A stretch of DNA of 64,000 nt from Pomphorhynchus laevis. Taxonomy: Eukaryota; Acanthocephala; Palaeacanthocephala; Echinorhynchida; Pomphorhynchidae. Position numbers and translations under genes: made by a program. The notes below the pieces were generated by a model, which was not told the DNA's origin, did no database searches, and saw only the letters and a program-made list of their open reading frames with translations. The DNA is taken from positions 78,969 to 142,968 of the forward strand of contig WNNJ02000238.1 in assembly GCA_012934845.2 (NCBI GenBank). The letters are read 5' to 3'. Positions 57,001 to 63,000 of the stretch are shown piece by piece. How positions within the stretch are numbered: position 1 is the stretch's first letter; every line of letters begins with the position of its first letter.

Positions 57001-60000
57001 AGAAAATCCGTAATCATAACGAAGGCGAGAAAGGAGGACGGAGTGGTCGACAATGTCGAATGCGGAGGAGAGGTCGAGGGAGATGAGAACACTATATAGA
57101 GCCTTGTCTCGAGAAATGAGTAAGTCGTTGTACACTTTTATGCATGCGATTTCTGTCGAATGATTAGAGCGGAAAGCGGATTGGAAAGGAGGGTACAGAT
57201 TGGATGAGAAGAGATAAGCGTTGATTTGTATTAAGATGAGGCGTTCTAAGAGCTTAGAAAGAGTAGGGAGTAGTGAAATGGGGCGATAGCTAGAAGGGAG
57301 GGGTCGAGCGATTGTTTCTTAAGGAGGGGACGAACGATTGCGGATTTTCAGTGTGAAGGGAAGATACGACTGCGGATGGACGAGTTAAACAAGGTTGTGA
57401 GAAATGGGCATATCGATGAGCATATAGATTTTAATATGGGAGTAGGCAGGGGATCGGCATGTGAGATTTTGTTGGGCAAGGACATGAGGACATATTATAC
57501 TTCTGTAGGTGAGACATGGAGAAGATGAATGAGTTCCGGAAGGATGAGATTAGACTGGCAGAGTGGGATAGGATGGAGACCGGGGTGTGAGAGAACAACG
57601 TGGATACTTTAGTCTGGAGAAATGACGAATAATCATTGGCATTTATTTTGCACGGCGAAGAGGAGCGAGCAAGGATTGAGTTAAAAGTATGCCAGAGAGT
57701 CTTAGAGTTGAATGAAGTGATGATTTTATGCTGCCAGAAGGAGTTGCATTTGGTACGTAGTAGGTTGAGATGAGACCGGCGAAGAGCAAGATAGGAATCA
57801 CGGAAAGCCGGAGTGATTGAGCGGAAATCACGTCTGAGAGAGCTGTGATAGACTCGAAAAGCACGGTGGCGTCGACGCTTTGATAGTAGGCATTGGATGT
57901 CAAACCATTGGGCACGGTGCAAGCGACGGTGTGGGTGATACTTGAAGGGCAAGAGAATATTGAGAGTGGATGTGAGTTCAGAGTCGAAAAGAAAGGCGAG
58001 ATCGTGAGGAGATGAATATGTTATTGTGGGTAATGATATAGATGATTTAGTTAGTTTTTTGAAAGGGTTTAGAATATGGTATTGCAAAGTACATTATCTT
58101 GCTTATTCTGAAATTCGCGATATATTCGCTTTTTCTTCGAATAATCGCATACACCAAGTATTATTAATTACAATACTCGCTAAAGTTGTTATTTATATTT
58201 AGTACTTATGTATATTCATTATCATCATTACTGCCGTTTAGGTAAAACTACAATAGCCGATTCATTATTAGCAAGCAATGGCTTAATATCTCACCTAATG
58301 GCTGGAAAGGTATAATCTACTACATTTCTAAACAAATAACATATTCAATTAGCTGATATTTTTACTTTTAATATAATTGAAGGTTTTTCTACTTTTACAT
58401 AAGGTATGTAAACAGCTATAATTTGTATGGCTTTTACCCCGAGAATCAAAACACAAATCAACTTTATTAACAAATTTTCACGAATACAAATTGCCTTTTC
58501 AGCTAATGTTTTTTAAATTTATGTCTTAAGAGGCAAATTGCATTGGCGAATATTTGCTAATAAAGTTTATGTGTGTTTTGATTTTCGGGGTGAACCAAGA
58601 TTTGATTAAATTTACTGCGAAGGTAATCCCTCGCAAACTATTACTTTATCAGTTAAAAACAAGTTGATCTGTAATGAACTGTGTAAAATTAGGAATTATT
58701 TTACCAGAAAGCATTATTTAATAACAGCTTTACATACATGTGGGTTACGAACCGAACGCGTGCGCTTGCATCTACTTTGGAAGTGAATTTTATTTACTAT
58801 TGCACTTTATTGAGCAGACCAGAGACCTTGTCAGTGCATTCTAAGTTGGACGACAACGGCTATCCACATATGATTATTAAAAGGGTTGGAGGGGAAGCAA
58901 GCCATTTCCAGATTGAGCGGTTTTAAAAACATTTATATCTCTAATACACTTAAATCTAACAGCGTGTATCTGAAAACTAGAACTATAGTCAATGTTATCC
59001 ACCGTAAAATTGCAGATGAAATTTGTCAGCGAGTATTAAATTTGTTTAGTGTCTACCATAGAAGAGAGTAAATCAGAACAAAGTGTAGATTTGTAAAAAT
59101 ATTAATCCCATTAAATTAAATACGTATTTTTGTTCAAAGCGCGATTTGAAGAAAACATTTAACAGCTTAAAAACCATAAGCTGAAGAATACTGTAATGCC
59201 GAAAGGTCGTTAAATAAATTTTTTTCAATTGAATATATATATATATATATATATATATATATATATATATATATATATATATATATATATATATATATAT
59301 ATATATATAATTTAATCGTAGAATGTGTAAAACTGTGCTCCGGGAGCTAAAAAGCTTCAGTTTCATAATTGTAAATTTTGCCAAAAACCGGAGTTCGATT
59401 ACATGCAGAGCAGACTTCCTTATCACTCCTAGACGATCTGATGGTAGCCGGCAGCACTCATCAGTAGGGTGAACTACCATCAGTCGTTTCGGCTGCCTTG
59501 TGATATATTTAAAAGGCATCTCCGAGAATTTGCTAACGTAGTAGCATTGGCATAGCCTCTTTAAACTAACAACGTGCTTTCCGGATCATCCTAATTTTAA
59601 TCGGCAGGAATTTTAATTGCTGTCGCTGCTTGCTTTCTCACAGGATCCCTTTGTCGGATACGTTTTTATAATTTAATCGTAGAATGTGTAAAACTGTGCT
59701 CCGGGAGCTAAAAAGCTTCAGTTTCATAATTTTAAATTTTGCCAAAAACCGGAGTTCGATTACATGCAGAGCAGACTTCCTTATCACTCCTAGACGATCT
59801 GATGGTAGCCGGCAGCACTCATCAGTAGGGTGAACTACCATCAGTCGTTTCGGCTGCCTTGTGATATATTTAAAAGGCATCTCCGAGAATTTGCTAACGT
59901 AGTAGCATGGGCATAGCCTCTTTAAACTAACAACGTGCTTTCCGGATCATCCTAATTTTAATCGGCAGGAATTTTAATTGCTGTCGCTGCTTGCTTTCTC

Positions 60001-63000
60001 ACAGGATCCCTTTGTCGGATACGTTTTTATAATTTAATCGTAGAATGTGTAAAACTGTGCTCCGGGAGCTAAAAAGCTTCAGTTTCATAATTTTAAATTT
60101 TGCCAAAAACCGGAGTTCGATTACATGCAGAGCAGACTTCCTTATCACTCCTAGACGATCTGATGGTAGCCGGCAGCACTCATCAGTAGGGTGAACTACC
60201 ATCAGTCGTTTCGGCTGCCTTGTGATATATTTAAAAGACATCTCCGAGAATTTGCTAACGTAGTAGCATGGGCATAGCCTCTTTAAACTAACAACGTGCT
60301 TTCCGGATCATCCTAATTTTAATCGGCAGGAATTTTAATTGCTGTCGCTGCTTGCTTTCTCACAGGATCCCTTTGTCGGATACGTTTTTATAATTTAATC
60401 GTAGAATGTGTAAAACTGTGCTCCGGGAGCTAAAAAGCTTCAGTTTCATAATTTTAAATTTTGCCAAAAACCGGAGTTCGATTACATGCAGAGCAGACTT
60501 CCTTATCACTCCTAGACGATCTGATGGTAGCCGGCAGCACTCATCAGTAGGGTGAACTACCATCAGTCGTTTCGGCTGCCTTGTGATATATTTAAAAGGC
60601 ATCTCCGAGAATTTGCTAACGTAGTAGCATGGGCATAGCCTCTTTAAACTAACAACGTGCTTTCCGGATCATCCTAATTTTAATCGGCAGGAATTTTAAT
60701 TGCTGTCGCTGCTTGCTTTCTCACAGGATCCCTTTGTCGGATACGTTTTTATAATTTAATCGTAGAATGTGTAAAACTGTGCTCCGGGAGCTAAAAAGCT
60801 TCAGTTTCATAATTGTAAATTTTGCCAAAAACCGGAGTTCGATTACATGCAGAGCAGACTTCCTTCTCATATATATATATATATATATATATATATATAT
60901 ATATATATATATATATATATATATATATATATAATAAAGAGCTGAATGGTTCACACTGTTCTCCGGGAGCTTACAAGCTACAGTTGTATAATCAAGAATT
61001 TTGCCAAAAACCGGAGTTCGATTACAAGCAGAGCAGACTTCGTTATCACTCCTAGACGATCTGATGGTAGCCGGCAGCACTCATCAGTAGGGTGAACTAC
61101 CAACAGTCATTTCGGCTGCCTTGTGATAAATTGAAAAGGCATCTCCGAGAATTCGCTGACGTGGTAGCATGGGCATAGCCTCTTTAAGCAAACCACGTGC
61201 TTTCCGGATCATCCTAATTTAATCGGCAGAAAATTTTATTGCTGTCGTTGGTTGTTTTCTAACAGGATCCTTTGAGGATACATTTTTATAATATAAGAGC
61301 AGAATGGTTTACACTGTTCTCCGGGAGCTTACAAGCTACAGTTGTATAATCAAGAATTTTGCCAAAAACCGGAGTTCGATTTCAAGCAGAGCAGACTTCG
61401 TTAACACTCCTAGACGATCTGATGGTAGCCGGCAGCACTCATCAGTAGGGTGAACTACCAACAGTCATTTCGGCTGCCTTGTGATAAATTGAAAAGGCAT
61501 CTCCGAGAATTCGCTGACGTGGTAGCATGGGCATAGCCTCTTTAAGCAAACCACGTGCTTTCCGGATCATCCTAATTAAATCGGCAGGAAATTTTATTGC
61601 TGTCGTTGGTTGTTTTCTAACAGGATCCTTTGAGGATACATTTTTATAATATAAGAGCAGAATGGTTTACACTGTTCTCCGGGAGCTTACAAGCTACAGT
61701 TGTATAATCAAATTTTTGCCAAAAACCGGAGTTCGATTACAAGCAGACTTCGTTATCACTCCTAGACGATCTGATGGTAGCCGGCAGCACTCATCAGTAG
61801 TGTGAACTACCATCAGTCGTTTCGGCTGCCTTGTGATATATTGAAAAGGCATCTCCGAGAATTCGCTGAAGTGGTAGCATGGGCATAGCCTCTTTAAGCA
61901 AACCACGTGCTTTCCGGATCATCCTAATTTAATCGGCAGGAAATTTTATTGCTGTCGTTGGTTGCAATAAAATTTCCTGCCGATTAAATTAGGATGATCC
62001 GGAAAGCACGTGGTTTGCTTAAAGAGGCTATGCCCATGCTACCACGTCAGCGAATTCTCGGAGATGCCTTTTCAATTTATCACAAGGCAGCCGAAACGAC
62101 TGATGGTAGTTCACCCTACTGATGAGTGCTGCCGGCTACCATCAGATCGTCTAGGAGTGATAACGAAGTCTGCTCTGCTTGTAATCGAACTCCGGTTTTT
62201 GGCAAAATTCTTGATTATACAACTGTAGCTTGTAAGCTCCCGGAGAACAGTGTAAACCATTCTGCTCTTATATTATAAAAATGTATCCTCAAAGGATCCT
62301 GTTAGAAAACAACCAACGACAGCAATAAAATTTCCTGCCGATTAAATTAGGATGATACGGAAAGCACGTGGTTTGCTTAAAGAGGCTATGCCCATGCTAC
62401 CACGTCAGCGAATTCTCGGAGATGCCTTTTCAATTTATCACAAGGCAGCCGAAACGACTGATGGTAGTTCACCCTACTGATGAGTGCTGCCGGCTACCAT
62501 CAGATCGTCTAGGAGTGATAACGAAGTCTGCTCTGCTTGTAATCGAACTCCGGTTTTTGGCAAAATTCTTGATTATATATATATATATATATATATATAT
62601 ATATATATATATATATATATATATATATATATATATATATATATATATATATATATATATATATATATATTAATGTGAGAAAGACGGCCGATACCTTTTT
62701 GTAAAACATGACGTTTCTCTTGGATAAAAATTCCATTGAAAAGTCGAAAATTACAAAACAATGAATGCAGAATGTGTTTTGTTTTCCTAATATATTCTTT
62801 AATAAATTTTGCATTTTATTAATAATGCAACGTTAGAAGTTCGACTATTTCATGTATCGAACGTGTTTATCATGAAATTCAAGGTGTGTGCAAACTGCTT
62901 TTAAAAAACGATACTAGTTTTTATTAACGTTACTTTATTAACGCTAACAATATTGTTTATCTATACATGTATTATTTTTAATTAGATTCGTTATATGGAT

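Follow-up and report, generated by a model that had tools for sequence, protein, structure and literature searches.

Each repeat of a tandem array in the genome of the acanthocephalan Pomphorhynchus laevis carries a hammerhead ribozyme motif whose strands stand in an order that no circular permutation of the hammerhead (types I, II, and III) yields. The array lies in a stretch of 64,000 nucleotides (nt) of contig WNNJ02000238.1 (positions 78,969 to 142,968, assembly GCA_012934845.2). This stretch is called the window, and all coordinates are window positions. The order is that of type GCS, and at least six families of such repeats, A to F, were found in the genome. Judged from its sequence, the array is likely a retrozyme-like, non-autonomous retroelement with a type GCS hammerhead in each unit, predicted to be self-cleaving. 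The wider reading, to which a probability of about 0.55 is given, is that type GCS is a working and maintained permutation of the hammerhead that has arisen at least twice in one lineage (once in family E and once in families A to D and F), that it processes retroelement transcripts, and that its helix III serves both at the core and as a clamp between helices I and II.

The array of the window belongs to family A, in which the strands follow one another as II-GAAA-III / I-CUGAUGA-II / III-GUC-I. They form three blocks: G (II', GAAA, III), then C (I, CUGAUGA, II), then S (III', GUC, I'). The reference copy is found on the plus strand at 62085-62160. Its G block consists of the helix II' strand (62085-62092, pairing with 62126-62133), the core GAAA (62093-62096), and the helix III strand (62096-62109, pairing with 62136-62150). 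The C block consists of the helix I strand (62111-62118, pairing with 62152-62160), the core CUGAUGA (62119-62125), and the helix II strand (62126-62133). In the S block, the helix III' strand including the final GU of GUC (62136-62150) is followed by C17 (62151), after which cleavage is predicted by homology to the hammerhead core, and by the helix I' strand (62152-62160). Core boxes and arms were assigned from the sequence, and the arms, except the helix II' strand, also from duplex folds. Read from the sequence, helix I has 8 pairs with A62156 bulged, helix II has 7 pairs with T62127 bulged, and helix III has 14 pairs with A62146 bulged and a possible 15th pair, T62110-G62135. Duplex folding gives 8, 6, and 15 pairs, respectively, the seventh pair of helix II spanning the bulge. 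Each helix crosses both of the others, and every arm meets the core at the consensus position. A first-pass annotation made from the letters alone had described helices of 8, 7, and 14 pairs with at most one bulge each, arms at the consensus core positions, and a non-permutable order in which all three helices cross, and this description holds for the reference copy.

The same annotation had counted nine units with CUGAUGA, GAAA, and GUC, and nine copies are indeed present. CTGATGAGTGCTGCC occurs nine times in the window, twice on the plus and seven times on the minus strand, always with 0 mismatches, in a search that tolerated up to 3 mismatches (mean in shuffles 0.89, largest 4). GAAA, CTGATGA, and GTC are equally spaced in all nine copies. 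Besides the reference copy, five are intact: 62443-62518 on the plus strand, and 60506-60581, 60145-60220, 59784-59859, and 59423-59498 on the minus strand, each found by both copy comparison and the order-blind scan described below. By copy comparison the remaining three, all on the minus strand, are slightly damaged: 61404-61479 and 61046-61121 have GAAAT and, in helix III, a T-T mismatch, while 61756-61831 has a change in helix I. Tandem Repeats Finder (TRF) rows and oriented BLAST segments place the array at 59306-62577, with the ribozyme in minus sense from 59306 to about 61964 and in plus sense from about 61964 to 62577, so that the two orientations join 5' to 5' near 61964. A period of 361 bp had been proposed for the whole array. 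According to TRF, it applies to the block 59306-60869, and in the block 60930-61964 the period is 358 bp. TRF also reports TA microsatellites at both 3' ends of the array (59233-59309 and 62574-62670) and between the two minus-strand blocks (60869-60933). Exon-like segments flank the array at 53951-54058 and 62989-63070. We take these exons to be EFL1-like, the gene name being recognised from a protein motif (HVDHGK in one of them). Because EFL1-like exons, one ending near 54058 and the next beginning near 62989, stand on both sides, the array is placed by its sequence context in an intron, as had been supposed.

The window was scanned on both strands for all six block orders, with at least 4 contiguous Watson-Crick pairs from the core in each of helices I, II, and III, a sum of at least 14 pairs, and a span of at most 110 nt; note that these thresholds were chosen after the finding was known, although none of the orders is favoured by them. 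The scan gave eight matches, all of them G-C-S. Six are family A copies, and two belong to another array at 1216-2222, on which the first-pass annotation was silent. None of the other five orders was found on either strand of the window, and with 8/8 matches G-C-S no unit contains the C-G-S, G-S-C, or S-C-G order of types I, II, and III. In 300 order-1 Markov shuffles of the 64-kb window no match of any order appeared. A chance resemblance in one repeat that was then multiplied by copying is therefore a very poor explanation, as the first-pass annotation had also judged; one founder accident would recur in thousands of copies, and yet the same order with other arms is found in families B to F, including the unrelated family E in the window itself. 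This explanation is hardly credible.

No better standard fold within a unit, which the annotation had named as a possible refutation, was found by the order-blind scan or by Rfam. Rfam reported no hammerhead in the window at the gathering score. In 58800-63200 it gave 28 matches with E values of 5 or less, none of them to a hammerhead family. These sub-gathering matches, most of which coincide with TA tracts or with the palindrome near 61964, were rejected as chance. No tRNA genes were found in the window. A slightly looser scan of 353,944 bases of fetched loci, which were chosen by similarity and are not a fair sample, gave 80 distinct GCS, 23 CGS, and 2 SCG matches. When these bases were shuffled 30 times, no GCS match and 4 matches of other orders appeared. 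A match of CSG order (L069) is a chimaeric junction of C' to A with blocks from neighbouring units, and two of the four SCG candidates of a relaxed scan (L082 and the window) have few Watson-Crick pairs and are probably chance.

The hammerhead core (CUGANGA, GAAA, and NUH at the three-helix junction) is present in the nine window copies and in families B to F, with uninterrupted blocks in G-C-S order. In the 249 Mb of genome searched, with at most three mismatches allowed, a 17-nt family A piece has 2339 + 2147 occurrences, versus 178 + 173 for the reversed control. An exact 20-nt piece of family E occurs 948 + 818 (1766) times and an exact short piece of family B 643 + 558 times, with 0 control matches in both cases. 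A total of 131 loci were fetched. In the first 98, there are 447 profile matches to the ribozyme region of A, of which 390 span the ribozyme, leaving 234 distinct rows after removal of short and N-bearing ones. Diverged rows among these A-like matches turned out to be other families (B and C), and a search with a shorter generic pattern (61 places versus 2 control matches) led to family D. Several further matches of this pattern (e.g., L110, L111, and L112) have no GAAA or site block in place and are not counted as GCS. Five of the six families form tandem arrays, with units of 392 bp in B, 364 bp in C, and 354 bp in D, and one, F, is a single copy (L005). A subfamily, C' (L007, L010, L069, L100, L120, and L121), has about 16 extra nt that separate the proximal from the distal part of III' and contain a small hairpin, CAT-TTCG-ATG. 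Units of 354-392 bp with a G+C fraction of 0.38-0.43 are within the range of animal non-LTR (long terminal repeat) retrozymes (tandem repeats of about 150-450 bp, low G+C).

Outside roughly the last 100 nt of the unit, similarity between families is limited, by BLAST at E<=0.1, to C with D and a single match of B with C (E 0.097); a 13-nt match of A to a unit with a type I hammerhead (E 0.025) is probably chance. Family E, which forms the array at 1216-2222 on the minus strand, has no BLAST similarity to any other family at E<=0.1, family A included. Its hammerheads, located by TRF, scan, and rows, are at 2039-2118, 1670-1749, and 1299-1378, the last with one weakened pair in helix II; the period is 369 bp and the unit spacings are 369 and 371 bp. 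The plan is the same as in A: GGACC-GAAA-CAC..., CACUG-CUGAUGA-GGUCC, and ...GUGU(A or U)-CAGUG. Variants of E with a changed helix II were found in two places, neither with a compensating change. Since E thus has no covariation of its own, its support comes from the same architecture in an unrelated unit.

Absence of compensatory changes among diverged copies had been set in advance as grounds for abandoning the structure. In the aligned sequences, helices I, II, and III are all backed by such changes, helix I most weakly and each by few independent events. The 234 A-like rows were taken without regard to pairing. Among them, double changes by which a pair is preserved are found in helix I at 62117/62153 (TA to GC, 8 rows) and 62115/62155 (CG to TA, 6 rows), and in helix II at 62091/62128 (CG to TA, 8 rows), 62090/62129 (GC to AT, 6 rows), and 62086/62133 (GC to AT, 8 rows). 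Helix III has them at 62109/62136 (GC to CG, 13 rows), 62105/62140 (GC to AT, 10 rows), 62101/62144 and 62106/62139 (7 rows each), and 62107/62138 (6 rows). A smaller alignment takes 22 of a set of 93 rows and covers families A to D and F, with E rows left out. In it, 86.8% of cells are paired, versus 76.4% in shuffles and 27-51% when slid, and 80 cells are doubly changed, versus 30.6 in shuffles (0/500 as high). These rows were preselected for four helix I pairs, so that the 100% pairing of helix I is no evidence, and along part of helix III the B rows are misaligned. A swap of arms between families does not depend on alignment. For helix III, the family's own arms are the best of both row and column in 6/6 families (-12.9 to -25.7 kcal/mol), and for helix II no swapped pair beats the family's own, though ties occur.

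Against the reading of the array as a retrozyme-like element with a type GCS hammerhead, a number of observations have to be set. The double changes are confined to 17 of the 234 rows, mostly of families B and C, and for this reason they represent few independent events despite the many rows; 2-16% of cells per pair are unpaired in the 234 rows. In the 22-row alignment, the number of pairs with a double change is in only weak excess (15 versus 11.9; 16/500 shuffles as high), and the number of pair types is not above shuffles (370/500). A, D, and F have an identical helix II' arm, and the swap of helix I arms does not discriminate for C and E. In folding, only A and C are clearly better than shuffles (z -2.6 and -3.5), the whole A unit is no better (z -1.2), and the nested minimum-energy folds of D and F are without helix III and have helix II instead. 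Nor is the cleavage site a preferred start of the arrays; 3 of the 111 distinct 5' ends lie there. Finally, conservation among A copies is not clearly higher in the core than in the flanks, which is expected if many copies are dead, and the 14 nt of the core are intact in only 137/234 rows, implying that many indeed are. The 97 rows with a broken core would also agree with a structure that has lost cleavage and is retained for another role, e.g., as a hairpin bound by a protein or by the reverse transcriptase. In the intact rows, however, the junction retains GAAA, CUGANGA, and the NUH site across six families with differing arms (the presence of the core partly defined the choice of rows), and such a non-cleaving role is improbable.

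How a hammerhead closes with the far ends of all three helices tied together is a sharp structural problem. In A to D and F, helix III is linked to helix I by 1 nt (T) and helix II to helix III' by 2 nt (GG); in E, the linkers are 2 and 1 nt. Because the linkers are only 1-2 nt, the far ends of the three helices are tied to one another. In the proposed fold, the GAAA strand and the cleavage-site strand would pair as helix III, and the CUGAUGA strand in the loop of this hairpin would form helices I and II. The distal part of helix III, which linkers of 1-2 nt per side connect to the outer ends of I and II, would probably clamp these two together. Five of the six families have a bulge or internal loop that interrupts helix III 3-6 pairs from the core; in C' the insert interrupts it, and in C it is continuous. 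On this model helix III probably has two tasks, one at the core and one as the clamp that holds I to II; such a dual role was raised as a possibility for type GCS in the available text of Eckert et al. 2023 (PMC10085705).

A helix III of 14-15 bp, unbroken in C, would nevertheless be hard to accommodate in one closed unit, and this bears on the strongest alternative. It holds that a single unit is inactive and that neighbouring units or RNAs assemble the working hammerhead together, the base of one hairpin pairing with the CUGAUGA loop of another. Along the transcript, the blocks would then make either an ordinary type I hammerhead whose loop is long, C(n)-G(n+1)-S(n+1), or one of type II, G(n)-S(n)-C(n+1). 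In this way a standard fold, which was not found within the unit, could still arise between units. This alternative is favoured by the tandem arrangement of five of the six families, by the length of helix III, and by nested minimum-energy folding, in which A, B, C, and E form a helix III hairpin that keeps the C block in its loop; in addition, newt-type hammerheads work as dimers, according to the available part of Cervera and de la Pena 2020 (PMC7229834). On the other hand, all three blocks lie inside about 75-95 nt in every family, and GCS-1, the one published sequence of this type, is described in the accessible portion of PMC10085705 as cleaving as a short transcript. Linkers of 1-2 nt, moreover, are kept in two lineages without detectable kinship. 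Free pairing between units needs no such linkers, whereas an exchange of loops with the same clamp would. Pairing between units is the less likely explanation, and an origin of the three strands from one unit, not from neighbouring ones, is somewhat favoured.

In the proposed life cycle of the type GCS repeats, the transcript would cut itself after C62151 (GUC^UAGG), and multimers would be split into unit-length RNAs of about 360 nt able to be circularised. A circle or multimer would then be copied by a reverse transcriptase primed at TA microsatellites, giving new tandem arrays. Among the fetched loci, A segments have 96 distinct sense 3' ends and 111 distinct 5' ends. The 3' ends fall at three unit positions (126, 135, and 68, reading TTATATTATA, AATGTAT, and TTGATTATA) in 31 of the 96 cases, and the 5' ends are scattered; peaks of 5' ends at 256 and 265 are probably due to segments of C and D, whose match to A is confined to the surroundings of the ribozyme. 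Ends running straight into TATA or ATAT are found in 32/96 3' ends versus 7/111 5' ends. Where A neighbours lie on opposite strands, 19 junctions are 5' to 5' and 5 are 3' to 3'. The array ends would thus fit reverse transcription that is primed at TA tracts, follows a circular or multimeric template, and inverts at the 5' end. Insertion by target-primed copying of circular RNA has been proposed for animal retrozymes, with Penelope-like elements suggested as helpers, in the text available of PMC7229834.

The head-to-head junctions, at about 61964 in the window and 19 times among the fetched A segments, have their 3' ends outward and resemble twin priming at a palindromic TA target. As for the enzyme, 10 open reading frames of the window were scanned for the reverse transcriptase family PF00078. 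Two are over the cut-off (13949-16171 and 17710-20919), and two more are just or well below it (32966-33691 and 39055-40944). These reverse transcriptase-like frames are possible enzyme sources for the copying of the arrays.

Hammerheads of ordinary order also exist in this genome. Type I hammerheads are found in 296-bp tandem repeats (L099-L103; C2913, C2049, C1351, and others), and of the 72 RF00163 matches listed, 62 exceed the cut-off. More type I (C-G-S) hammerheads, mutually unlike, are located in the flanks of arrays (L032, L061, L066, L074, L075, L086, L092, L098, and L101). A hammerhead of S-C-G order, similar to type III, is present in L029; its site is GUA, its helix II reads GTCAT-TGTG-ATGAC, and it has two opposite copies, at about 323-420 (minus-strand count) and 3225-3320 (plus strand). 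COX1-like pieces with stops in long contigs (L124 and L125; C2414, C235, and C704) are probably nuclear copies of mitochondrial DNA; the proteins listed as matching such pieces, at least 120, are no more than 36-55% identical to them.

The order had been taken to be undescribed, which is wrong. In the available text of Eckert et al. 2023 (PMC10085705), six hammerhead block orders are defined and G-C-S is named type GCS, with one candidate, GCS-1 of Caballeronia peredens, which is reported to cleave in vitro at 0.014 per min and for which no covariation is given in that text. The authors urged scepticism and marked its biological relevance with '?'. No further papers on type GCS were found in the literature searched, which was without preprints and most subscription papers. 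The order is therefore already known, and what is new is support from several families with compensatory changes. If the reading is right, these repeats are the first case of covariation in GCS hammerheads and also the first in which a mobile element of a cellular genome carries a non-circular RNA permutation, and retroelements would tolerate, and may repeatedly evolve, non-circular permutations of catalytic RNA. The biological relevance of type GCS, left open in the accessible part of PMC10085705, becomes directly testable with several families and thousands of copies. Since the Rfam models reported no hammerhead in the window at the gathering score, other genomes may hold unseen GCS hammerheads.

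Among known systems, GCS-1 is the closest, sharing with the window ribozymes the G-C-S order, the core, and the place of the predicted site. It is, as far as the available text of PMC10085705 goes, one bacterial sequence without covariation, whereas in P. laevis several families with compensatory changes exist in tandem repeats. Types SGC and CSG, from the same source, are likewise non-circular permutations with crossing helices. Their orders are different, however, and they come from metatranscriptomes (SGC) or metagenomes (CSG) and not from a cellular repeat. Animal non-LTR retrozymes, as described in the consulted part of PMC7229834, carry a type I hammerhead (C-G-S) in each unit, and expression of their circles has been demonstrated. 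The window units are G-C-S instead. The type I hammerheads of newt and axolotl (the same part of PMC7229834) are likewise found in tandem repeats and may act between copies. While these hammerheads have the ordinary order and a very short helix III, those of P. laevis combine a permuted order with a long helix III.

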